Part shown: piece after piece, positions 2,716 to 19,727 of the stretch
How the letters are laid out: every line of letters starts with the position of its first letter
Numbering within the stretch: position 1 is the stretch's first letter
IMG/VR virus record: IMGVR_UViG_3300010354_000893
Coordinates: 1-20,235 of that record
Length of the DNA: 20,235 nucleotides
Source of the DNA: a virus
Direction: 5' to 3' (one strand)
The notes under the pieces: model-generated
Seen by the model: only the letters and a program-made list of their open reading frames with translations
Told to the model about the DNA's origin: nothing
Database searches by the model: none
Position numbers and translations under genes: made by a program

Positions 2716-5700
2716 TTATGGCCTAAATCCATTTACGTTCGCAGTATAAGATCTATTTAAAGTAATTGCACTTTGAATATCTCTAATAGCACCATCGCCT
2801 ATTTTAAGTTGAACTGGTTGATTTAATTTAGAAATTAATTCTTTCAATAAAGCTTCAACGCCTTTATTATCGGTTTGCGTAGACGGAACCGTAGATTGTT
2901 CAGAAGCAGCCACTACTGCAGTGGTAACCGTAGCGGGTTGTTGCATTACAGGAGTAATCGCAGGCTTCGTTTGAGTAACTTGGGTTTCTTGTTTCGGCTC
3001 TTCTTCTCCGAATCCAAAGAAACTTCCTACAGAACTAATTGCACTACTTGCTAAATCTTTAACACCGGACATTGCCGACCCTAAAGTATCACTTATAACA
3101 TCCGTAATACCGCCGCCACCAACATCTTTAGGCGTTGCAGACGCAATTTGCTGCATACGAGCGATATCATCATCAGTTATTTTTTTCATTGATGCCATTA
3201 AATTATCATATGACTTAGATAAATTATCGATAGCAGATGCCAACGCATCAATTTCATCATGTTCTATGTCTGCAATATCATTTAATAAAGTAGCAATAAT
3301 ATCACCCTTATCAGCAACGCTATCATCCAATGCAGACATTTTTTGATTGAACGTTTCAATACTTGTTCCGGCAAGAGCAATAGAAGTAGCTACAGTATCT
3401 ATTTTAGCGGTATCAATTGCCGCTAATTGATTGAATACTGCAAATGGGTCTGAACCCAAGAAACTATTTAAAGCATCCGCTAAACCACCTTTAATAACTT
3501 GATCATTAAATTTATTTAATGCGTCTGCAGATTTTGTTATAGGCTCTGTATCTACATTACCGAAATTAGATAATGCAGTTGACATAGATTTTAAACCATC
3601 GGCGGTAGTTTTCATTTTATTACCATCGATAGTTTCTAACTCTTTTAATGTGTCAATAGGGCTAGCCCCAAAGAACGACGCTATACCATTAACCACTTCT
3701 CCGGCAGTAAGTGCTAATAAGCCAGCTCCTAATGCGCCTAATGATAATCCTACCGCAGCTATATTTCCTGCATCTACGTCGCTAAATTTAACAATAGAAT
3801 CTGCAATTGCAGTTATAACTGTAGATATTGCTTTACCTACTGATTCGATAACTTCACCGATGCCGTTTAATATACTAGATATTGCAGTACCCGCAGCTTC
3901 AATTGCCGGTGCTACTGCCCCTATACCTTTACCTAATCCTTCAAACATTATACCTAATGCAGCTATTCCCGGAGCGGCAATACGTAACGCAGCTGCAATG
4001 CCCATTGCCATACCTAGAAGAATTAAACCTACCGGCATACCAAAGAATGGAGTCGGTGTAGCCATTGCCTGAGCGAAAGTAACTAATCCGGTAGATAGGC
4101 CCGCAAAGAACGATCCTATTGCTTGACCTAAACTATTCATTATACCTGGTAATTTACTAGCCGCTTGGCCTAGGCCGTCTAATAAAGTATTAACGACTTT
4201 CATTACATTTTCAGCTAATGCATTTCCTACATTTCCTAATGCATTTACCAATGCAGTGCCTTGAGTATTTATTACTTCAATTACGGCACCTAATAATTCA
4301 CCAACCGCTCCTATTAAATTAGTACCAACGCCTTTAATTACATCTATCGCTGTATTTAATAAATCTCCGATATTTTGCATTAAAGATTGTAATGTAGAAG
4401 TTAATTCTTTTGCAACATCTTTAATTGTTTTAAAAATGTCTTTCATTACATTCTTAATAAAATCTAATATCGTTTTAACAGTATCTTTAACAAAGTTAAA
4501 AATATTTTTAAGCATATCACCGATTCCTTTAAATATTGCTTTTAAAGTATCGTTAATAGACTTAAATGCAGATTTTAAACGATCAGCAAAGGAAGTAGTA
4601 TTTTTTAATGTTTTATCAGCACCTTTTGTATCTACTTCAGGTGTATCAATTTTTTTATCAGCTAAATCTTCAACCCCGCCCTTCTTTTTACCAAAGGAAG
4701 GTAATTTACCTTCTTTTAAACTTTTAAATCCATCCTTTAAAGAAGACCCTATACCTTTTGCACTATCGTACATTGAAGATAGTCCTTCTTTTGCCTTACT
4801 CAATGTTTTTAAAATAAACCAACCTCCAATTATATTTCCAATTGCAAGAGCAACGTACTTAATAATTTCCATTGATTTACCGGTTTCTTTAGCGGCTTCT
4901 CCGGCGTCGCCCGTTGCATCTTTTATACCAAAAATATCTTCTTTTATAAATTTTATTACTTTACTTATTTTATCGAATACATACGATATAACATCGATAG
5001 TAACTCCTATAGGATACCATGCACCTCTTAAGATATTCATGGATATTTCCATTACAGTGCCTAATATAGAACCTATTGATTTAAAAGTTGATAATATGCC
5101 TTGTACAGGGCCGTCTGATTCTAATAAAGAATTTACGAAAGATTCGATTGCAGGTAATAAAGGCTCGATAGCTTTAAATAATGCAGTTTTAAATTTATTT
5201 GCAACTGCTGCTAGTTTTTCTTGCGTACTTAAATTTTGCTCGTTTAAAAGTTTTTCTTTTAACATGTCTCGAGCTTTACCTGCAGATACTTTAGATAATG
5301 CTTTTTCCATATCAAAACCTTCTTTAGTAGATGCATTTAACATCTCCTGTAATTCGGTTTGAGATAATCCTATCGTTTCTAACTCTTTCTGCTTAGCCAT
5401 CATTTCATCTAACTGATCAACGCCCATTCCCATTGCTTCTGCATAAAGCTTTCTTTGATATGGCCCTAATTTTTCGTATTCTGCGGCAGACCCCATTTGC
5501 TGAACCATAGCGTCCATCATTTTTTCCGTTTGGCCTGTCATATAGAAATAACGAGCAGCGTCCATATTAATGTTTTTACCTAACATAATACGAGCTTTAT
5601 TTTGTGCTGCGATTTGCGATTCTATATTCATTAGGTTTTCACCTACTGCATTCATTTTATCTAATGTAGTACCCATTAATTTAGCTTGCTTAACTGCTTT

Positions 5701-8025
5701 AGCTAAAGCTACTACATTACCTTTAAAATTAAATAAAACGCCTTTAGATACCTTACCTATATCTTTCATTAATTCACCCGCAGGAACTAAACCGTCTTTA
5801 CTCATGGCTTCTACTGTAAGAGCCATTTTATCCATTGTAGTACCCGTTATTGCAGCCGCTGAATTTAATTGAGCATTTTCTTCTGCCGTAGTTCCATAAC
5901 GTTTAGATAATAACGTACTAGTCTCTAAAAATTCTTTAGCTTTTGCATTAGTGGTAGATAAGGTTCCTAAATTAACACCCATTACTTTTTGTAACTCAAC
6001 CATTTGTTTAGTTACGTCAGAAGTTGATACTCCGAATTGACCTAATTCTCCCGCTATATCATTTGCAGTGCTATATACTTTAGTAGCTTCTTGATAAGAT
6101 AAATTTAAATTTTTAGCTAATTCTCCAACAGCGGCATCGGCATCTAAAAATAATTTTACTAATCCTACCACTCCTGCTATTGCTAACAATATTGGAAGGA
6201 TAGGTAGTAATGATGTCATTAACGTAGCGGCTCCTGATGCAGCTGCAGAGAAAAATCCCGTAACGCCGCCTCCAGCTGACATAAATCCATCTGTTATAGA
6301 TTTAAATAATTTATCTTTTAATTCTGATTGTATTTTATCTAATCCGAGCATTTTTGATATATTATCCGGTACTATACCGAATAACTTATCAACGGGTTGC
6401 GACAATACATCTGCCATTCCCTGTGCTTTACTTTGAATCGCGTCATAAGCGTCGCCAGTTTTTTGAACCGCTTCGAATTGTTTAAGCTGTTCGGTGACTA
6501 TTGCTTGTTGGGTATCTAATACTAATAATAATGCCGCTCGTTCTTCTCCTACAATACCATTAGAATCATCTAATACTGCCTGTCGCTGTAATTCTAATTT
6601 TCTTATACGGTCTTTAGTTTCAAATATTTCACTAGAAAGATCTATATTTCTATATTCTGCAGTTCCTAATTTACTTGCACTAGATTCTACATCAATCATT
6701 GATTTAGCAATATCTTCATATGCATTACCTGATTGATTTGTTAATTTATTTATTTCATTTAATATCGGTAATGATTTTGATGTAGTCTGAATACCCGCAG
6801 CTTTAAGAGCATTAATACGCTCTTCTTCTTTAGCGCTCAAATCTTTTACTGTATTTAAATTAGTTTCAGTATCAATTAAACTATTACTAACATTTTCTAA
6901 AAACTTTGTTTTATCAATTTGATCGATTAAGCCGTTTTTAATTAATCCTGAATTTGCAATACGTGCGCTATCATATGATATTAATTGTTTTGATATATTT
7001 GATAATTCTTTTTTAGAATCAAAATCTTTTAAAGATTCTGTAGCTACTTTTCTCATAGCGGCAGCCGCATCTTCTCCATACGAAACTAAAAACTTCATTT
7101 CTGAATTAGTTAGCTTAACATTATCGCCGCCTTGTTTTATTTTCTTTAAAATTTCTTCGTACCGCTTTTGCATTTTATCAGCGGATTTAGTCGATAAATT
7201 TATATTTTCTGTTATATTATCCGTTTCAGTAACTTGCTCTTGTAATTGATCCGTTGCATTAGATGCAGTTACTTCTGTTTGCAATTGTATAACAGGAGTA
7301 TTTTTAGCTATATTACTTAATAAAGAAGTATCTGGCGTATCTATAATAGAAGATAAAATAATTGGATTATACCTATCAATTGTTTTATCTAATAAAGAAG
7401 TATCAACTAAATCTATTTCTGCCATTAATTCCAAAATAGGCATTTTATCTAATTCTGATAAATCTAATTTATTTAATTTAGCATTAATTAATACGTTATT
7501 AAATTCGGGCAATTCAATGTCTTGAACATTAAATTTAACATTTGCATTGATATCTTCAATTTTAGGAATATCTATTGGTTGAACATTAAATTTAACATTT
7601 GCATTGATATCTTCGATTTTAGGAAGTTTAAGTTGATCTACATTAAATTTAACGGTTGCATTAATATTTTCTACGGACGGTAATTCAATATCTTCTACAT
7701 TAATATTAGATTCAATTTTAAGAGTAGGTATTTTTATATTCGATATATCTTTTGAAAAGCTATTTAATTCTCCACGTAATGATCCAAATTCTTTAGTTAA
7801 TGTAGTAACTGACTTACCCATATCAACTATTTTATCTTGAATTTGATCTGAATAGTCAATAGTGTCTTCGAACCCGGCTGTTAAGGATTTAACAAAATTA
7901 TCGAGTTTTTTAGTTTCAAAGATTTTTGATAATTCTTTACCTAAATCTTTTATAGATAAAGATAAATCTTCAAAAGAATCTTTTAGCTCCTCAGCTTTTT
8001 TCTTCGGATCTTGCTGTTTTGCCAT
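2716..8025 (-). CDS. Tail tape measure protein
   Basis: This 1769-residue protein is the longest gene in the window and has the expected composition: long helical and coiled-coil stretches, hydrophobic segments, and a position after tube and chaperone genes. Residues 1-95 are a charged helical region. Residues 113-169 hold three 19-residue repeats (consensus LPKIEDINANVKFNVQ). Hydrophobic, membrane-like segments lie near 602-632 (LLPILPILLAIAGVVGLV), 1055-1075 and 1327-1400 (Gly/Ala-rich). The C-terminus is low complexity and then ends in a short conserved-looking tail. In this family the protein fills the tube lumen, sets tail length and is often ejected into the host envelope. The start at 8025 follows AAGGAT and lies 3 nt after the upstream stop, so the two genes are probably co-translated. 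T4 gp29 has about 590 residues, so this tail is probably much longer. Confidence 0.92.
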   Translation of the reverse strand: MAKQQDPKKKAEELKDSFEDLSLSIKDLGKELSKIFETKKLDNFVKSLTAGFEDTIDYSDQIQDKIVDMGKSVTTLTKEFGSLRGELNSFSKDISNIKIPTLKIESNINVEDIELPSVENINATVKFNVDQLKLPKIEDINANVKFNVQPIDIPKIEDINANVKFNVQDIELPEFNNVLINAKLNKLDLSELDKMPILELMAEIDLVDTSLLDKTIDRYNPIILSSIIDTPDTSLLSNIAKNTPVIQLQTEVTASNATDQLQEQVTETDNITENINLSTKSADKMQKRYEEILKKIKQGGDNVKLTNSEMKFLVSYGEDAAAAMRKVATESLKDFDSKKELSNISKQLISYDSARIANSGLIKNGLIDQIDKTKFLENVSNSLIDTETNLNTVKDLSAKEEERINALKAAGIQTTSKSLPILNEINKLTNQSGNAYEDIAKSMIDVESSASKLGTAEYRNIDLSSEIFETKDRIRKLELQRQAVLDDSNGIVGEERAALLLVLDTQQAIVTEQLKQFEAVQKTGDAYDAIQSKAQGMADVLSQPVDKLFGIVPDNISKMLGLDKIQSELKDKLFKSITDGFMSAGGGVTGFFSAAASGAATLMTSLLPILPILLAIAGVVGLVKLFLDADAAVGELAKNLNLSYQEATKVYSTANDIAGELGQFGVSTSDVTKQMVELQKVMGVNLGTLSTTNAKAKEFLETSTLLSKRYGTTAEENAQLNSAAAITGTTMDKMALTVEAMSKDGLVPAGELMKDIGKVSKGVLFNFKGNVVALAKAVKQAKLMGTTLDKMNAVGENLMNIESQIAAQNKARIMLGKNINMDAARYFYMTGQTEKMMDAMVQQMGSAAEYEKLGPYQRKLYAEAMGMGVDQLDEMMAKQKELETIGLSQTELQEMLNASTKEGFDMEKALSKVSAGKARDMLKEKLLNEQNLSTQEKLAAVANKFKTALFKAIEPLLPAIESFVNSLLESDGPVQGILSTFKSIGSILGTVMEISMNILRGAWYPIGVTIDVISYVFDKISKVIKFIKEDIFGIKDATGDAGEAAKETGKSMEIIKYVALAIGNIIGGWFILKTLSKAKEGLSSMYDSAKGIGSSLKDGFKSLKEGKLPSFGKKKGGVEDLADKKIDTPEVDTKGADKTLKNTTSFADRLKSAFKSINDTLKAIFKGIGDMLKNIFNFVKDTVKTILDFIKNVMKDIFKTIKDVAKELTSTLQSLMQNIGDLLNTAIDVIKGVGTNLIGAVGELLGAVIEVINTQGTALVNALGNVGNALAENVMKVVNTLLDGLGQAASKLPGIMNSLGQAIGSFFAGLSTGLVTFAQAMATPTPFFGMPVGLILLGMAMGIAAALRIAAPGIAALGIMFEGLGKGIGAVAPAIEAAGTAISSILNGIGEVIESVGKAISTVITAIADSIVKFSDVDAGNIAAVGLSLGALGAGLLALTAGEVVNGIASFFGASPIDTLKELETIDGNKMKTTADGLKSMSTALSNFGNVDTEPITKSADALNKFNDQVIKGGLADALNSFLGSDPFAVFNQLAAIDTAKIDTVATSIALAGTSIETFNQKMSALDDSVADKGDIIATLLNDIADIEHDEIDALASAIDNLSKSYDNLMASMKKITDDDIARMQQIASATPKDVGGGGITDVISDTLGSAMSGVKDLASSAISSVGSFFGFGEEEPKQETQVTQTKPAITPVMQQPATVTTAVVAASEQSTVPSTQTDNKGVEALLKELISKLNQPVQLKIGDGAIRDIQSAITLNRSYTANVNGFRP
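7519..7689 (-). repeat. Three tandem 57-bp repeats in the tape measure gene
   Basis: A 57-bp unit (19 residues, ending VKFNV) is repeated three times in frame. GAACATTAAATTTAACATTT (plus strand) begins at both 7524 and 7581, and those two copies are nearly identical over more than 40 bp. The third copy (nearest 7689) and flanking degenerate units are more diverged. The unit is a beta-type or extended motif rather than a heptad coiled coil. Confidence 0.88.
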
Positions 8026-8028
8026 TTA

Positions 8029-8346
8029 TTATTTATCCTTTGCTTTTGGCCCATATTTTTGACCAAATGCATCTTTTCTACCGTATCGTTTAAATAATTC
8101 TATATATTCAGGACTATTACGTAATTCATTTTTACGATCCGTAGCCTGTTTTAAATCTTCCAAAGCATATTCTAAAGATCTAAATTTATCTTTAATATCC
8201 GGATCGTTTTTTAAATCTTCAACAGCTTTTTTAATTTTGCCTTTAAAAAATAATTTTATAATAAGATCTACGAACTTACTTTCTTTTATAAGCTCTTTAC
8301 GAACTTCTTCGCGTATAAGGTTTCTTAAGTTTTCTTGTTTATTCAT
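8029..8346 (-). CDS. Small helical protein of unknown function upstream of the tape measure
   Basis: The 105-residue product is highly charged, predicted largely helical, and lysine-rich at the C-terminus. Residues 7-19 (LRNLIREEVRKEL) share the pattern L-R-x-x-I-R-x-x-(I/V)-x-x-E-L with residues 93-105 of the coiled-coil protein at 10651-10163, which suggests a common docking helix. A hydrophobic patch (LIIKLFF) follows near residues 28-34. The start ATG at 8346 has no clear Shine-Dalgarno sequence and lies 3 nt after an inverted repeat that surrounds an AT-rich promoter-like box. The gene ends 3 nt before the tape measure start. That position suggests a role in tape-measure or tail-tube assembly, but I do not recognise a family. 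Confidence 0.75.
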   Translation of the reverse strand: MNKQENLRNLIREEVRKELIKESKFVDLIIKLFFKGKIKKAVEDLKNDPDIKDKFRSLEYALEDLKQATDRKNELRNSPEYIELFKRYGRKDAFGQKYGPKAKDK

Positions 8347-8400: not shown

Positions 8401-8646
8401 TTAAGATCTTCTAGGCGCAATAGAAGGCTTATCTACTGTACGTTTATTAGATTTTTTACTTGCTTCTTGTTGCGCTTTATTTTGAGCTTCAATAGTTTCG
8501 TTTATTTTCTTAATATAGAATCTTCGTAAGAAGATTGGCATTTCGTAGACACACTCCCAAGTGAATCCTCCCTTACCATGATATACAAGGTTAAATATCT
8601 CCGAGTGGAGATACGGGCGATACTCAGGAGTTGGGCCAAAAAAAGC
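8401..8646 (-). CDS. gp51-like tail-assembly domain, reached by probable ribosomal frameshift from the gp26-like gene
   Basis: This frame is +1 to the preceding gene. It is closed by TGA at 8649-8647 and then open to TAA at 8403-8401. It has no ATG, GTG or TTG before an internal ATG at 8541, so most of the domain cannot be made by independent initiation. Read from the U-run (8640) it gives 79 residues. The segment VYHGKGGFTWECVYEMPIFL, continuing LRRFYIKK, has the (V/I)YxMPIxLRRFY pattern that I recognise from T4 gp51-type baseplate-hub assembly proteins. The tail is charged (NETIEAQNKAQQEASKK). A slip at UUU-UGG or UCC-UGA would fuse it to the gp26-like protein, giving 362 residues in both cases. 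A -1 or +1 error in the 7-base homopolymer is the main alternative explanation. No other gene occupies 8350-8620. Confidence 0.75.
   Translation of the reverse strand, partial: AFFGPTPEYRPYLHSEIFNLVYHGKGGFTWECVYEMPIFLRRFYIKKINETIEAQNKAQQEASKKSNKRTVDKPSIAPRRS
8596..8613 (-). promoter_or_regulatory. Stem-loop downstream of the putative frameshift site
   Basis: The minus-strand RNA UAUCUCC-ACUC-GGAGAUA forms a perfect 7-bp stem with a 4-nt loop. It starts 10 nt after the UGA of the gp26-like gene and 24 nt after the run of seven U. A stem at this distance could pause the ribosome at the stop codon. It lies inside the coding sequence of the gp51-like frame, so chance complementarity remains possible. 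Confidence 0.5.
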
Positions 8647-9490
8647 TCACGTCCATCGGCATATCCATTACCTTGGTTTCGCCGGTTGTTTCCGAGGTAA
8701 ATACAAATGTCATATCTAAATCTGGAGTGACTTTTTTAATCTGATCACGTAATGCTCTTGAATCCATTGCGAGAAGTTCATTATCGACAAAATTATTAAT
8801 AGTAGTCGTATCAGATTTACCATCAACTGAAGTAATTAAGTTTTTCAATCTAGTGGTAAGTTCTTTATCGATACCAGTATTCTTTGTTAATTTTGCATAT
8901 CCCTTAAGATCATCCTTAATCTTTTTCTCTAATCCATGGGTGAGCAACCTGAACGTAATTGTTCTTTTAGAAGCCGGTAAGACGAACGTAAATTCATTTT
9001 GTCCATTGGCGATAGACTCATAATCATATTCTTTTGGCTCAATTGTAGTTAAGTCAATAACTACCTTTTGCTTATTGTCAGAAAAAGGATCTTGAACCTC
9101 AACTGCATACTCTTTACCGTATCCTAAAATACGAGCTGCGAGCATAATTGCATTTTTATCACATACAAGCAAGTCGTCGTAATTAATTTTAGATACAATC
9201 ATACTTTGAAATAGTTTATCTAATACTACTCCTTGTTTAATAAGATTTGCAGAAGTAAGAATATCTTCTTCTCTTGCAGTCATATACTTCATTTCAACTT
9301 GCCCAGAAGCCAATGGATTATCTTTTGGATATAATAATCCTTTAGTAGGAAGATCTACAATTTCCGTTGGAAAATTATATTTCTTTACTTCTTCTTGTTT
9401 GAAATTTTGTAGGGCTGCTGCCTTAAGGGCTGCGTCCGACATTTCTTCTGCCGGAGATTTTTTAGGATAATTGTCATCAACTAATGCCAT
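8624..9490 (-). CDS. T4 gp26-like baseplate-hub / tail assembly chaperone
   Basis: The 288-residue product carries the signatures of the T4 gp26-type baseplate protein family: LPTKGLLYP at 47-55 and VEMKYMTAREEDIL at 65-78, followed by a mixed alpha/beta domain. T4 gp26 is about 208 residues. In T4, gp26 and gp51 act in central baseplate-hub assembly. In many other tailed phages the gene pair before the tape measure encodes chaperones that bind it. The gene lies between tail tube and tape measure, as expected. It begins after AGAGAA and an AT-rich box that follows a terminator. It ends in SFFWPNS, encoded by AGC TTT TTT TGG CCC AAC TCC TGA, which is the candidate recoding site leading into the gp51-like frame. 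Confidence 0.85.
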   Translation of the reverse strand: MALVDDNYPKKSPAEEMSDAALKAAALQNFKQEEVKKYNFPTEIVDLPTKGLLYPKDNPLASGQVEMKYMTAREEDILTSANLIKQGVVLDKLFQSMIVSKINYDDLLVCDKNAIMLAARILGYGKEYAVEVQDPFSDNKQKVVIDLTTIEPKEYDYESIANGQNEFTFVLPASKRTITFRLLTHGLEKKIKDDLKGYAKLTKNTGIDKELTTRLKNLITSVDGKSDTTTINNFVDNELLAMDSRALRDQIKKVTPDLDMTFVFTSETTGETKVMDMPMDVSFFWPNS

Positions 9491-9598: not shown

Positions 9599-10087
9599 TT
9601 AGAATTGTAAGATAGCGTAATCGTATTTAATAGTTAAACTGATGTTAATCGCATCTTCCGTAGCCCAATCAAAATCACCGAACTGCGCAGCACCGATATA
9701 AGCACCTTTTAAAGTCCACTCTTCAACCTTATCACCTACAGGTCCTAATACGTTAAAGGTAATATCTTTCTTATAAAAGTCAGAGTAACCATCGCGACCG
9801 GTAACTGATTCGTGAGATAAACGAACCCACTCCATTACTGCCTGTGCACCGGAAGGAACGATAGGATCATAAAGAGTAACGGTAACGTCATCCCAACGAC
9901 CTTTTCCTTTAAGTTTTCTTTCAACGTTAATATGATCTAATACTACATCGCCAAATGTAATACTTGGACGGCCTGAAGCTTTAACTAGGTATGCAGGGAT
10001 ACCTTCGATATACATAATGAACCTGTTGGCTACTTTTGGTTCAAATGCTGTAAACATTATTTCTGTAGGGTCAATTAATTCTGCCAT
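9599..10087 (-). CDS. Tail tube protein, T4 gp19 type
   Basis: The 162-residue product matches T4 gp19 (163 residues) in length and in organisation. It starts with an N-terminal segment containing EPKVANRFIMYIEGIPAYLV, which is the start of the tube fold. A central beta stretch follows with the RWDDVTVTLYDPI motif, and the C-terminus contains LKGAYIGAAQFGDFDW and an alternating hydrophobic strand. The protein stacks as hexamers to form the inner tube that the sheath surrounds and through which DNA passes. The start at 10087 is preceded by AAAAGGAAATAAA, a good Shine-Dalgarno sequence. The gene has its own AT box upstream and a terminator downstream, consistent with the high expression needed for a many-copy protein. 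Confidence 0.95.
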   Translation of the reverse strand: MAELIDPTEIMFTAFEPKVANRFIMYIEGIPAYLVKASGRPSITFGDVVLDHINVERKLKGKGRWDDVTVTLYDPIVPSGAQAVMEWVRLSHESVTGRDGYSDFYKKDITFNVLGPVGDKVEEWTLKGAYIGAAQFGDFDWATEDAINISLTIKYDYAILQF

Positions 10088-10740: not shown

Positions 10741-13362
10741 TTAAGCACCAAATGTTGCTCCGGTTGGTAAAATATTGAAATCAATAATAATGAATTCTGC
10801 AGTTCTGGTCGGCTGTAAATAAATCTGACCATACATAATATTTCTGTCAATTAAATCAGGCGTATTATTAGTGTCATCCATTACTACTTTGAAAGCATAT
10901 ACACCGCTTCTTTGTTGAACTGATTCCATATATGGGTTAACGATATTTAAGAATCTGTTACGAGTTGCTGATGTATTTTGCTCAAATACTAAATACTGGG
11001 TAGCTGATGCAATAAACTTCTTAAGCGCGATTAATAAACGGCGAACGTTAATTCTATCTAATGCTGAAGGTTTAGCTTGCAATGTTTTCTGACCCCATAC
11101 CGTAATACCTTGACCAGGTAATGTAGCGATAGGATTAACTCGACCATCATATAAAGTATCAATTTCTGTTCTTGATAATCTTGAATATGCATCTACTACA
11201 TTTGGTAATGTACCACGATTTAAACCTGCAGGAGCGAACCATTGTTCACCTACCTTATCATTATAAGCTAATACTCCCGGCATAACTACTGAAGGCGGTA
11301 CCCAAAGTGGTTTGGTTGTATTTGCATCTATAATTTTAACCCAAGGATAATAAGTAGCAGCGTAATTTGAATCCCAATCCTGAATAGCATCTACCGTAGC
11401 TTGAGCGGTCGCTTCTAATCCCGTAGCGTCAAATATAAAGAATGTATCACCTCTGTCTTGTGCCACTTGTTCTGCATAAGAAACAATAGCCGGATGTAAT
11501 AAATAAACTAATCCAGGGCACACGAGCAAATTAATATCCACGCTCGTTGCAGAACCTACTGCATCAATACCATATTTAAATGCTAAATATCCGTCCGATG
11601 TAGAAGTATTTACATTAAATCCTTGAGTATTTGTAGCAGTTATATTCGCACCAGTTAAAAGTTCTTTATTTGGATATGAACCATCAAATCCGAATTGGAA
11701 TGGAACTATAAATTTACGCGACTCGATATTTGTTGCAGAAGTTAAGCCGATAGCTATTTCTGCTCCTGCTGATGCATTTTGCGTATAATTTGATAATAAA
11801 AAGTTTTTATTAATTCCGGTTGTAGCATCGTTAGGAACTGGTTTTAAATAATTTAAATTATCATTAGTACTAAAATCATAATCAAATCCGAAATAAACTT
11901 TCTTGTTATAAACTCCATTTGAATCTAATTGATTAGATTTATATTTAGCAATAGGAAATGCATTAACCAATATTTGCGTATTACCATTAATATCGAGCGT
12001 AGACCCTGAATACAAATGAAGCGGTAATGTAGCATATAACGATTCAAAGCCAAATGGAACAAGCGCGGTTGAATATGAACCGCGCGATACTTTCGTATCT
12101 ACTTCAACGCGAATATATTTTGATTTATTGTCATAATCACCAGTAACTACGGCTCTTAAATTATCAGTATCAAAATAACGGTATCTGTCACCTATTTTCT
12201 TACCAATATAATTTTTAGAGGTAGGATCTAAATTACATTGAGTAAATGTTTCAAGAATAGTAGGTCTTACGTCAGAATCAATCGTCGTAAATGGCGATCC
12301 AGGAATTAATGATTGATCAACAGCTCTTACTACAACTGTAAAGTCTCCGTATTCTGTTCCCGGTACTGTGCCGGCAGCGCGAATATTTGAAATACCTACT
12401 TTAACTTCATAGTTAGCATTAGAACCTTCTGACAATGTATGAAATTTAAATAATTTATTATTAACCCCATTAACTGTTTGAGAAATAATCCAAGGGGTAG
12501 ATGCATAAGTATGATATTGTCCCGAAGCACCCGTTCTTCTATCGCCGGAAAATACGATAGATGCAGATACTGTACCTGCTACCGATGCAGTAGGTAGTGA
12601 AACAAATAATGAATTAAGCCCTGCAGATCCCGAATATAAACTTGATATCCCGTTAGACGCAGTGCCGCCATATGTATACTGAAACGTATTATACAAATAT
12701 ACAGGATCGGTAGATGTCATCGGAGTCGTACCAAATACTTTAGTAAAGTAATTATTATCGGTACGAAGTAATCCGTTAATCGTATATGAGGAATTAGTAG
12801 ATCCTGATCCTGATATCGATAATGTAATCGATGAAGAGAAATCTGCTGCTACGTTAACTGTATATGAACTATTATCATCATTAAAAAACTTCGTTGGATT
12901 TGATATAGTATAAAATCCTGAATTCGTTTGTTTTTTAGTTGGATGTAACGTAAACAATAATTGACTAGAAGCTCCGTATTGCAGTGCTTCTGCATTAGTA
13001 TATAATCCCGTAGCAGCTAAACTATTAGATACAGAAGCCCGTACCTTAGCCGATCCTGATGCATATACTGCTACTAAGCCTGTATTAAGTGCATAACCTT
13101 CTGACGGCATAATACGTACTACAGTAGCTCTACCACCGTTAGTTACATATTCTTTAACCGCATAAGGCATATAATAATTTGCATTGGTTTTTCCGAATAT
13201 CGTTTCGAATTCCGTAAATGAATTAAGTGCAGTGGGTACGAAAGCAGGTCCTTTTGTTGCGGCACCTACAAACGCTCCACCTATTTGAGCGACGCCCGCG
13301 GGAAGGAATGATAAGTCCTTTTCATTCGTAAATACACCCGGGCTAACTATTTTTTCTGCCAT
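10741..13362 (-). CDS. Tail sheath protein, copy A (873 residues)
   Basis: This protein is a contractile sheath subunit of the T4 gp18 type. The N-terminus (SPGVFTNEKDLSFLPAGVAQ, then GAFVGAATKGPAFVPT and an FGKTN segment) is the typical sheath start. The C-terminal 230 residues hold the conserved core, including LWVPPSVVMPGVLAYNDKVG, DGRVNPIATLPGQGITVWGQ and ALDRINVRRLLIALKKFI. Phage T4 gp18 has 659 residues, so extra surface domains (about residues 105-310 and 410-620) are inserted between the conserved ends. It polymerises around the tube and contracts on infection. It is a paralogue of the gene at 15876-13453: the last 100 residues are almost identical, while the inserted regions differ in length and sequence. 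The start at 13362 follows TTTAGGAGAACA. Confidence 0.96.
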   Translation of the reverse strand: MAEKIVSPGVFTNEKDLSFLPAGVAQIGGAFVGAATKGPAFVPTALNSFTEFETIFGKTNANYYMPYAVKEYVTNGGRATVVRIMPSEGYALNTGLVAVYASGSAKVRASVSNSLAATGLYTNAEALQYGASSQLLFTLHPTKKQTNSGFYTISNPTKFFNDDNSSYTVNVAADFSSSITLSISGSGSTNSSYTINGLLRTDNNYFTKVFGTTPMTSTDPVYLYNTFQYTYGGTASNGISSLYSGSAGLNSLFVSLPTASVAGTVSASIVFSGDRRTGASGQYHTYASTPWIISQTVNGVNNKLFKFHTLSEGSNANYEVKVGISNIRAAGTVPGTEYGDFTVVVRAVDQSLIPGSPFTTIDSDVRPTILETFTQCNLDPTSKNYIGKKIGDRYRYFDTDNLRAVVTGDYDNKSKYIRVEVDTKVSRGSYSTALVPFGFESLYATLPLHLYSGSTLDINGNTQILVNAFPIAKYKSNQLDSNGVYNKKVYFGFDYDFSTNDNLNYLKPVPNDATTGINKNFLLSNYTQNASAGAEIAIGLTSATNIESRKFIVPFQFGFDGSYPNKELLTGANITATNTQGFNVNTSTSDGYLAFKYGIDAVGSATSVDINLLVCPGLVYLLHPAIVSYAEQVAQDRGDTFFIFDATGLEATAQATVDAIQDWDSNYAATYYPWVKIIDANTTKPLWVPPSVVMPGVLAYNDKVGEQWFAPAGLNRGTLPNVVDAYSRLSRTEIDTLYDGRVNPIATLPGQGITVWGQKTLQAKPSALDRINVRRLLIALKKFIASATQYLVFEQNTSATRNRFLNIVNPYMESVQQRSGVYAFKVVMDDTNNTPDLIDRNIMYGQIYLQPTRTAEFIIIDFNILPTGATFGA

Positions 13363-13452: not shown

Positions 13453-15876
13453 TTATGCACCGAATGTCGCACCGGTAGGTAGAATATTGAAATCAATAAT
13501 GATAAATTCTGCCGTACGAGTAGGTTGCAAATAAATTTGACCATACATAATATTACGATCAATAAGATCCGGTGTATTATTTGTATCATCCATTACAACT
13601 TTAAATGCATAAATACCTTGTCTCTGCTGAACTGATTCCATATAAGGATTTACAATATTCAAGAATCTATTTCTGGTTGCAGAAGTATTTTGTTCGAATA
13701 CAAGATATTGAGATGCAGAAGCAATAAACTTCTTAAGTGCGATAAGCAATCTACGTACATTGATACGATCTAATGCACTAGGTTTAGCTTGAAGTGTCTT
13801 TTGACCCCATACTGCAAATCCGATATTCGGAATAGTTGCAATAGGATTAACTCGACCATCATATAAAGTATCGATATCTGTTCTATTTAAACGTACATAA
13901 GCGTCATTAACTGCTAAACCACCTCTGTTAAGGCCTGCAGGAGCGAACCACTGCTCTCCTACTTTATCATTAAATGCAAGTACGCCTGGAATAATAACGC
14001 TAGGCGGAACCCATAATGGACGAGTGGTATTAGCATCGGTTATCTTAACCCATGGATAATAAGTAGCGGCATAATTTGAATCCCAATCAGCAATTTGATC
14101 TACTGCATTTTGTACGGTAGATTCTAACCCAACTGCATCGAATACAAAGAATGTATCACCTCTGTCTTGAGCAATTTGCTCTGCATAAGAAACCATTGCA
14201 GGATGATATTGATAAATAACTCCCGGTATTACTAATAAATTAATATCTACTGTGGTTGCACTGGATACGGCATCGATTGCTCTTTTATATTGTACATATC
14301 CGTTAGTTGAAGTACTAGAAAAATCATATCCTTGAGAATTTGTAGAGGTAATATCGGCTCCTGTAGATATTACTTTACTAGGATATATACCGTCAAATCC
14401 GAATTGGAATGGAACTATAAATTTACGAGTTTCAACAGACGTTGCGGTCGTTAATCCAATCGATCCGGTATACGAGAATGAAGAATCTTGATTATAATTC
14501 GATAATAAGAATTTAGCATTTGATCCTGTCGTAGCTCCGTTAGGAACTGGTTTTAAATAATTTAAATTATCCGTCGTAGCAAAATCATATTTAAATCCAT
14601 AATGTATTTTCTTGTTATAAACTCCATTTGAATCTGTTTGATTAGTTTGGAATCTTGCTACCGGAAACTCCGTGCCGTTAGGATAAAATGAACTAGATAA
14701 TGTATTCATTAATGCAGAATGCCCAAACGGTACTAATACGGTTGGATATGCCCCATCTTTAACTCTATTATCAATTTCAACACGAATATATTTTGACTTA
14801 TTTGGATAATCGCCCGTTACTACCGTACGTAAATTAGCCGTATCATAATACTCGTATCTGTCACCTATTTTCTTACCAATATAATTTTTAGATGTCGGAT
14901 CTAAATTACATTGAGTAAACGTTTCAAGAATATTTGGTCTTACGTCAGAATCAATAAAATCAAACGGAGATCCTAAAATTAATGATTGATCTACACCACG
15001 AACTGTTACTGTAAAGTCTCCATATTCCGTACCTGGTACTGTACCTGCCGGTCTGATTGTAGATATTGCTACCTTAACTTCATAGTTAGCATTAGAGCCT
15101 TCAGATATTGTATGAAACTTAAATAATTCGTAATTCGTATTATTTGTAGTTTGAGAAATAATCCAAGGGGTAGATGCATAAGTATGACCCGCACCGGATT
15201 GTGTACTTGATCGATCACCGCTAAACGTTATACCACCTACAATAGTTGTAAATGATGTAGCAGTAGCAGTTCCAGATGCAGCTGATGCAGTTACTGGAAA
15301 ATTCATATACAAATATCCGTACTCGTCAGTCGTAGTAGGATTTTGCGGAAATACTTTAGTAATAAAATTATTTGACGTTGAATTTAAACTAGCAGTATAT
15401 ACGGAATTAGCTCCTACAGCACCTGCTAATTTTAATCCTAATGAATCTTGAGTTAATACGGTAGTTGTAGCTGATGTGTCAAATACGTTATTTGCTCCGT
15501 TATAATCTGCAGACCCTGTTACTTTTTGCGTGGGATGAAGTGCAAATAACAATGTATTAATACCACCGTCATTTGCATATACGCCTACAATACCATTTGT
15601 TAATGAATACCCGTCAGAATTCATTACACGTACAACCGTCGCACGTCCGCCGTTGGTTACATATTCTTTAACAGCGTACGGCATATAATAATTTGAATTT
15701 GTTTTACCAAATATAGTTTGGAAGTCAGTAAACGAATTTACTGCTGTGGGTACATACGCCGGTCCTTTGGTTGCCGGTCCTATAAATGCACCACCTATTT
15801 GTGCGATGCCTGCAGGTAAAAACGAAAGATCTTTTTCATTCGTAAATACGCCAGGACTTATGATTTTTTCTGCCAT
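13453..15876 (-). CDS. Tail sheath protein, copy B (807 residues)
   Basis: This is a second T4 gp18-type sheath subunit, placed first in the transcription direction. It shares with copy A the N-terminal 100 residues (MAEKIISPGVFTNEKDLSFL onward), a middle block (TQCNLDPTSKNYIGKKIGDR) and a nearly identical C-terminal 230 residues, including GRVNPIATIPNIGFAVWGQK. Between these lie regions with clear differences: the insert after about residue 110 is shorter than in copy A, which accounts for most of the 66-residue length difference. All conserved core blocks are present, so both copies look functional. The start follows AGGAGAACA, identical to copy A, with a full AT box 29 nt upstream. The gene is followed by a strong UUCG-loop terminator. 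Confidence 0.96.
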   Translation of the reverse strand: MAEKIISPGVFTNEKDLSFLPAGIAQIGGAFIGPATKGPAYVPTAVNSFTDFQTIFGKTNSNYYMPYAVKEYVTNGGRATVVRVMNSDGYSLTNGIVGVYANDGGINTLLFALHPTQKVTGSADYNGANNVFDTSATTTVLTQDSLGLKLAGAVGANSVYTASLNSTSNNFITKVFPQNPTTTDEYGYLYMNFPVTASAASGTATATSFTTIVGGITFSGDRSSTQSGAGHTYASTPWIISQTTNNTNYELFKFHTISEGSNANYEVKVAISTIRPAGTVPGTEYGDFTVTVRGVDQSLILGSPFDFIDSDVRPNILETFTQCNLDPTSKNYIGKKIGDRYEYYDTANLRTVVTGDYPNKSKYIRVEIDNRVKDGAYPTVLVPFGHSALMNTLSSSFYPNGTEFPVARFQTNQTDSNGVYNKKIHYGFKYDFATTDNLNYLKPVPNGATTGSNAKFLLSNYNQDSSFSYTGSIGLTTATSVETRKFIVPFQFGFDGIYPSKVISTGADITSTNSQGYDFSSTSTNGYVQYKRAIDAVSSATTVDINLLVIPGVIYQYHPAMVSYAEQIAQDRGDTFFVFDAVGLESTVQNAVDQIADWDSNYAATYYPWVKITDANTTRPLWVPPSVIIPGVLAFNDKVGEQWFAPAGLNRGGLAVNDAYVRLNRTDIDTLYDGRVNPIATIPNIGFAVWGQKTLQAKPSALDRINVRRLLIALKKFIASASQYLVFEQNTSATRNRFLNIVNPYMESVQQRQGIYAFKVVMDDTNNTPDLIDRNIMYGQIYLQPTRTAEFIIIDFNILPTGATFGA

Positions 15877-18959: not shown

Positions 18960-19727
18960 TTAATTAAGCTTTTCAATAGTCATATATGAACATACTACGC
19001 TGGTAGATAATCTTGAAAATTTGTATAAGTAAAACGGTTGCGTATTTGAATTAATATGAAATTCAATAGTATCTGTTGTATGTAAATTAGCTACGCAAGA
19101 AAAAGTATACATACTTACATCAGATTTAATATTTTTTATATAATATGTTTTATATGGATTCCCGTTTATAAACATAACAAGTTCTGCGTCACCTGACAAC
19201 CCCGAAGAAACTTCGATATTACACTGAGCGTATATTTTATATATCCCGTCACTATTTACAGTTATAGTATTTGTATTTCTAGTATAATTCAGATTCGGTA
19301 TAAGATCTTGATCTAATTCAATCGTATTATCTCCAACAGTATATGCAGAACTAGTTCTTTCTAAAAACGAAACTTCATATACTTGAGCATTAGCATTTAA
19401 TGAACCAGATATATTTACAGAGCCGGTTATAGTTTGATCTCCTATAAATGTATTTAATCCTGTAGTTGCAAATGACGACGTTTGTGAATTTTGTACATAA
19501 GAACTTGTAGCTGATGTTAAACTACTTATTCTAGTATTAAAAGAAGAACTATCCGTTTGATATGAACTTGTAAATGTATTAAAAGATGATGTTGTAGTAT
19601 ATGACCCTGAATCGAATACGGGCGTGTTACCGATTGGACCTTGTATACCTTGAATACCTTGAGGTCCTTGAGCAGTTACTGTAACTACATTAGTAACATT
19701 TTTATTTACGGTTACTGTATTACTCAT
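18960..19727 (-). CDS. Collagen-like fibre protein with C1q-like C-terminal domain
   Basis: The 255-residue product has four parts. Residues 1-20 are Thr/Val-rich. Residues 21-33 are a short collagen-like stretch (GPQGIQGIQGPIG). Residues 38-90 are a Ser/Thr/Phe-rich repeat region with many SSF and SSY motifs, followed by a segment IGDQTITGSVNISGSLNANA (95-114). Residues 115-255 look like a C1q/TNF-type jelly-roll, with alternating strands, GIYKIYAQ in a typical position and hydrophobic strands to the end. This is the layout of trimeric phage fibres or head decorations that bind cell surfaces or glycans. Start and upstream stop overlap as ATGA, with AGAGG as ribosome binding site, so it is coupled to the 128-residue gene. 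Being next to neck genes, a head- or neck-fibre role is as likely as a tail-fibre role. Confidence 0.7.
   Translation of the reverse strand: MSNTVTVNKNVTNVVTVTAQGPQGIQGIQGPIGNTPVFDSGSYTTTSSFNTFTSSYQTDSSSFNTRISSLTSATSSYVQNSQTSSFATTGLNTFIGDQTITGSVNISGSLNANAQVYEVSFLERTSSAYTVGDNTIELDQDLIPNLNYTRNTNTITVNSDGIYKIYAQCNIEVSSGLSGDAELVMFINGNPYKTYYIKNIKSDVSMYTFSCVANLHTTDTIEFHINSNTQPFYLYKFSRLSTSVVCSYMTIEKLN

Follow-up and report, generated by a model that had tools for sequence, protein, structure and literature searches.

A predicted +1 frameshift in a gp26-like gene and the probable tail assembly chaperones of the T4 superfamily

The G and GT proteins of phage lambda are tail assembly chaperones whose long form is made by frameshifting (Levin 1993; Xu, Hendrix and Duda 2004; review PMC5009743), and T4 is named in the review as an exception to this G/GT rule (PMC5009743). 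The T4 proteins gp26 and gp51 are counted among the hub assembly chaperones and not among the tail components (PMC3004832), and the tail chaperonin of Bacillus phage 0305phi8-36 consists of two genes (PMC2147016). In cyanophages, gp51 is reported to have only about 20% of its usual length and to be devoid of the first ~200 residues; frameshifting is not mentioned for this protein in the paper describing it (Sullivan 2010, PMC3037559). In the literature searched, mainly open papers, frameshifting was not found to be described for gp26/gp51. Sites of +1 shifting have been described in E. coli prfB (CUU_UGA) and in influenza PA-X (UUU_CGU) (PMC10885494, PMC5009743).

The window analysed here is the whole stretch of 20,235 nucleotides of the viral record IMGVR_UViG_3300010354_000893. 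It very probably carries a frameshift-encoded tail chaperone gene of the G/GT type, decoded by a +1 slip, within a T4-superfamily layout of three forms. Its position, architecture and homology mark the system as a G/GT tail assembly chaperone. As in lambda, two overlapping ORFs lie between the tail tube and tape measure genes, the second ORF has no start of its own, and there is a short and a long form, which are predicted in the case of the window. On the other hand, the window shift would be a +1 step at UUU_U whereas that of lambda is -1, and the first window protein belongs, unlike lambda, to the PF12322 (T4 gp26) family. The site, its conservation, the coding character of the extension, the homology chain and the gene order can be read directly from the sequences. 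The features concerned are:

2716 to 8025, minus strand: tape measure protein gene, downstream (1769 aa; phrog_1272, 5.8e-20)
8029 to 8346, minus strand: small ORF (105 aa, ORF call) between the chaperone and tape measure genes
8401 to 8637, minus strand: +1-frame extension, T-like domain, 78 codons after the shift and then the stop TAA at 8403-8401 (open frame, all-helical model, bridging profiles)
8404 to 9490, minus strand: predicted frameshift fusion, GT-like, 362 residues (+1 step inside the U run)
8624 to 8626, minus strand: 0-frame stop TGA (position roughly kept in relatives)
8624 to 9490, minus strand: gp26-like ORF, unshifted G-like product (288 aa; PF12322 T4_baseplate / phrog_150)
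8634 to 8637, minus strand: GGCC directly 3' of the U run (0-frame: A-site UGG, then Pro; +1 frame: GGC)
8638 to 8644, minus strand: slippery run UUUUUUU (0-frame UUU UUU U), proposed +1 slip of the P-site Phe-tRNA (invariant in relatives)
9599 to 10087, minus strand: tail tube protein gene, upstream (phrog_4542, 2.5e-25)

The gp26-like gene and its proposed decoding

The gp26-like ORF ends in AGC TTT TTT TGG CCC AAC TCC TGA, and a re-reading of the sequence confirmed what the first-pass annotation had described for the +1 frame, in which a TGA at 8649-8647 is followed by an open stretch up to the TAA at 8403-8401. The resulting ORF of 74 codons (78 codons when counted from the shift) has no usable start, the first ATG, GTG or TTG of this frame being located 32 codons past the site. 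The chance of a 74-codon open stretch at the base composition of the window is ~0.007, taken alone. Translation with a +1 shift in the U run reproduces the 362-residue length that had been claimed for the fusion, with ..DVSFFGPTPEYR as the predicted peptide at the junction. Assignment of the first ORF to the gp26 family also holds, as it matches PF12322 above the curated Pfam cut-off (7.2e-7, 29.5 bits versus 24.5) and phrog_150 in PHROG (2e-10). The extension, searched as a single sequence, returned nothing useful in Pfam or PHROG.

The genes follow the order tail tube, gp26/T, small ORF and tape measure, so that the overlapping ORF pair occupies the G/GT position. The 105-aa ORF has no convincing family match in Pfam or PHROG; an extra small ORF between T and the tape measure gene is an arrangement reported for some other phages, and further members of the group, such as Mel-JY01 and HTVC008M, have one in this position. 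Elsewhere on the minus strand of the window, tandem paralogous tail sheath genes (10741-13362 and 13453-15876, both phrog_23, E ~1e-68) have nearly identical ends and a divergent middle, while the related isolates Mel-JY01 and immuto have one annotated sheath gene; a predicted tail protein (18960-19727, minus strand) has a short GPQGIQGIQGPIG stretch of collagen-like sequence close to the N terminus.

The gp26-like part and the extension were folded separately. The AF2 model of the former has a pLDDT of 90, and its best two matches among 350,542 PDB chains (Foldseek) are to the HK97 tail assembly chaperone 2ob9, with probabilities of 0.82 and 0.72 and E values of 0.28 and 0.47 that are not significant alone; if borne out, the top match would be a further likeness to lambda G/GT. 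The T-like extension is predicted to be all-helical, and its model has no convincing match in the PDB.

In the proposed mechanism, most ribosomes would terminate at the stop of the gp26-like ORF and release the short G-like protein. A minority would pause when the P site holds Phe-tRNA paired to UUU and the A site holds UGG, move one base forward (UUU to UUU within U7), and go on to make the 362-residue GT-like fusion, which includes the helical T-like domain. If lambda G/GT is taken as the model, the segment shared by both products would cover the tape measure protein, and tail tube subunits would be brought in by the rare T part. That shifting occurs, as well as its direction, its rate and the functions of the proteins, we infer.

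Conservation of the site and direction of the proposed shift

The first-pass annotation had proposed that the U run gives programmed entry into the +1 frame, and had suggested a comparison with related phages, and both site and ORF prove to be conserved, in agreement with a predicted shift. A scan of viral contigs gave a nearest set of 80 IMG/VR loci with 62-93% identity. TTTTTTTGGCC is in frame in all 80, with the 0-frame stop a few codons on, and all 80 contain the +1 ORF, which has 72-80 codons (two loci are cut by the contig end). Synonymous sites were compared in 53 distinct genes with less than 95% nucleotide identity, and every one of the 53 has TTT TTT GGC as its shift codons, while Phe codons elsewhere in the gp26-like cores are 459 TTT versus 117 TTC (20% TTC). 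The two shift-site Phe codons are the only invariant ones among 43 conserved two-fold columns, and the adjacent GGC is the only one among 37 conserved four-fold columns; in these genes the shift codons are thus the only degenerate columns without synonymous change. The extension's own frame is free of stops, whereas the two others contain 141 and 337; from this and from a median dN/dS of 0.45 (0.135 in the core), the extension is judged to be coding.

A shift at UCC-UGA of the antizyme type, which had been suggested as a second site, was rejected because the last codon and the stop vary freely (16 last codons and the three stops TGA, TAA and TAG) and the U run is invariant; only 13/53 distinct genes have TCC before the stop. 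As to stimulatory elements, RNAalifold predicted no conserved stem downstream of the site. The window alone can form UAUCUCC-ACUC-GGAGAUA there, the downstream region folds on average somewhat more stably than control stretches do, and the SD-like pairing upstream of the site (mean -4.7 versus -2.2 kcal/mol in controls) is weak and variable.

With a broader scan and with bacterial MAG contigs, the +1 extension was traced down to 47% identity and is present wherever the sequence suffices, except in one very distant MAG contig (L190). Site variants in this wider set are TTT TTT TGG, TTT TTT TAC, TTT TTT TAT, TTT CTT TGG (L256/L267), CTT TTT TGG (L241) and TTT TTT TTC. In a MAG contig of Winogradskyella (L180, near 5758), eight U (TTT TTT TTC CCT) replace U7GGCC and the +1 extension is kept. 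The total amounts to 170 loci and 129 distinct 280-nt contexts with the same frame relation, one locus having a motif outside the list used. Isolates at 25-57% identity likewise have the extension in the +1 frame, and the corresponding sites are TTT CTT TGG in Flavobacterium phage immuto, TTC TTT CGT C in Streptococcus GXN1 (L083), TTT TTT CAC in Bacillus SP-15 and TTT TTT AGT in Listeria LIS04; the uncultured phage LR756508 (L086) has AAC TTT CTA. Further scans with the gp26 of Desulfovibrio 7757 and SP-15 as queries revealed no further phages.

Re-pairing of the P-site tRNA after a +1 step (UUU to UUU or UUC, CUU to UUU) fits nearly all of these sites, although in LIS04 it must take place at the first UUU. 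A +1 slip of the P-site tRNA on UUU or CUU is favoured because of the invariance of the site together with its variants in wider relatives. The same slip on CUU or UUU is used by prfB and PA-X, and window relatives use CUU_UGG and UUU_CGU; differently from a stop-dependent site such as CUU_UGA, the A-site codon of window-type sites is usually UGG (Trp), and no conserved strong SD element was found.

The first-pass annotation had left a +1 and a -2 shift side by side, and of these it is the +1 shift that the variants favour. Slippage of the ribosome by -2 on U7, known in phage Mu (review), would yield the same fusion with FFF-G instead of FF-G at the junction, and it is considered unlikely. In the U7 lineage, where -2 is possible, none of the seven U varies, not even within the first Phe codon, which is not needed by a +1 slip at the second codon; nevertheless, -2 re-pairing is impossible at the homologous sites of GXN1 (TTC TTT CGT) and LR756508 (AAC TTT CTA), which allow +1, and L241 has CTT TTT TGG. 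The invariance of the first UUU codon fits not only -2 but also RNA polymerase slippage on the seven T, through which some mRNAs would have one U less or two more and give the fusion by ordinary translation. Such slippage is in keeping with the conserved length and purity of the run, but it seems quite improbable, given that the bacterial example in the review has runs of 9 A or T and that relatives maintain the same frame relation without a long run (TTT CTT TGG, TTC TTT CGT, TTT TTT CAC, TTT CTA).

There is very little to be said for a separate 3' gene expressed from an internal start or by termination-reinitiation. TAATG overlaps are seen at the ORF junction of the distant huge phage LR756511 and of Pseudomonas Cygsa01, and several phages of the -1 type have TGATG/TAATG in addition to the heptamer, but the first ATG, GTG or TTG of the window lies 32 codons into the domain, 3/83 lineage members lack such a codon over the stretch examined, the start position is not conserved, and no start would explain the synonymous freeze at the U run. 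An internal start was rejected for the window lineage on account of these late, sometimes absent and unconserved starts. A sequencing or assembly indel, for which the homopolymer run in a metagenome contig might speak, or a decaying gene can practically be dismissed, as the same frame relation recurs across the 129 distinct contexts among 170 loci and in isolate genomes.

Cyanophages and T4

In T4-like cyanophages, gp26 genes end in xxT TTT TTC, the canonical -1 heptamer U_UUU_UUC, which was found in 80/80 loci and 75/75 distinct genes. The Ser, Ala or Asn codon preceding the heptamer always ends in T, whereas 37% of such codons elsewhere do not. T_TTT_TTT, again followed by a -1-frame domain, is the site of Pelagibacter HTVC008M and Ochrobactrum OC, and Desulfovibrio 7757 has U_UUU_UUC. 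The -1 domain of cyanophages carries the annotation 'gp51, baseplate hub assembly catalyst' (phrog_634), and the second window ORF, in which a gp51-like segment had been recognised at the outset, resembles this domain via bridging profiles. Cyanophages and the window are alike in gene order, in the FF pivot and in a second domain read by a predicted frameshift, which is -1 at U_UUU_UUC in the former and +1 in the window lineage. From this comparison, the residues absent from cyanophage 'gp51' are those of gp26, supplied by the predicted -1 frameshift. Cyanophage 'gp51' (L098-L177, L280 and annotated genomes) is annotated from internal starts, and the domain is open back to U_UUU_UUC in gp26; it should probably be re-annotated as the product of a -1 frameshift.

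Some loci depart from this pattern. Synechococcus phage S-SCSM1 (L090, 5669-5710) has U_UUU_UUC, yet its T domain has an ATG of its own and occupies the +1 frame, which reflects either a sequence error or a lineage in which the shift has been lost. D507 has a TAATG overlap at the ORF junction. Four loci (L274, L275, L277, L278) combine the -1 heptamer with a TGATG/TAATG overlap, and phages with both may make a free T protein as well as the fusion.

Regarding T4 itself, gp26 and gp51 align with each other over 195 columns (HHalign 99.4%, E 4.8e-22), gp51 having ~50 extra C-terminal residues, and both match PF12322 over its full length; residues 1-201 of gp51 correspond to PF12322, and phrog_634 covers only residues 147-246. 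These profile matches indicate that the two proteins are paralogues and that gp51 is a gp26-type domain followed by a C-terminal tail. PF12322 is matched by the window, cyanophage and SP-15 proteins and by T4 gp26 and gp51 alike. The profile chain leads from window-type plus divergent members to cyanophage gp26 (97.7%, 1.6e-12) and from there to T4 gp26 (98.9%, 1e-17); for the tails, it links the cyanophage extension to the T4 gp51 tail (97.1%, 5e-11) and window-type plus Firmicute-phage extensions to cyanophage plus T4 tails (94.6%, 6e-8). Profiles restricted to the window lineage did not match T4 gp26 or gp51, for which broader profiles were needed. The window extension compared directly with the T4 gp51 tail gave no significant match, and thus the link between the two extensions rests on the bridging groups.

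The proposal that the window fuses gp26 to gp51, as two separate T4 proteins, has to be reworded. Since T4 gp51 already holds a gp26-type domain and a tail, an architecture that the whole window fusion shares via bridging profiles and that the second ORF alone does not equal (phrog_634 spans just the 147-246 segment), the comparison should read that the fusion is gp51-like as a whole and that gp26 is the unshifted form. Because of the paralogy and the profile chain, T4 would have a G-like gene 26 and a G+T-like gene 51, which look like a G/GT tail-assembly-chaperone pair made by gene duplication. Its gene 26 belongs to the same Pfam family as the first window ORF and has lost the U run (the site reads TTC TTT GAG), and each form has a gene to itself, the two paralogues being divergently transcribed, whereas the window has one gene and a predicted shift. 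Phage 0305phi8-36, with G and GT equivalents as two genes, is similar to what is proposed for T4, a likeness drawn from its description, sequences not being compared. The bridge between the T4 and lambda arrangements that the first-pass annotation had envisaged is supported.

A proposed shared layout in T4-related phages

The G-T layout of the T4 superfamily would accordingly exist as a +1 shift (the window lineage and SP-15-like phages), as a -1 shift at U_UUU_UUC (cyanophages and the Pelagibacter phage), and as a gene duplication in T4, with gp26 as G and gp51 as G+T. It is likely that the T4 superfamily is no exception to G/GT, with gp26/gp51 as its chaperone, and that its ancestor had one frameshift gene at the FF pivot, where the direction was switched between +1 and -1 by lineage; the 'short gp51' of cyanophages would then be the domain of a -1 product, and T4 would have swapped the shift for gene duplication. 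If this is true, the G/GT pair would be present in many T4 relatives by a +1 or -1 shift and in T4 by duplicated genes, gp26 and gp51 would be predicted to act as tape measure chaperones, and the annotation of very abundant marine phages would be corrected. Moreover, the FF pivot would be a homologous site at which the direction of frameshifting switched in evolution.
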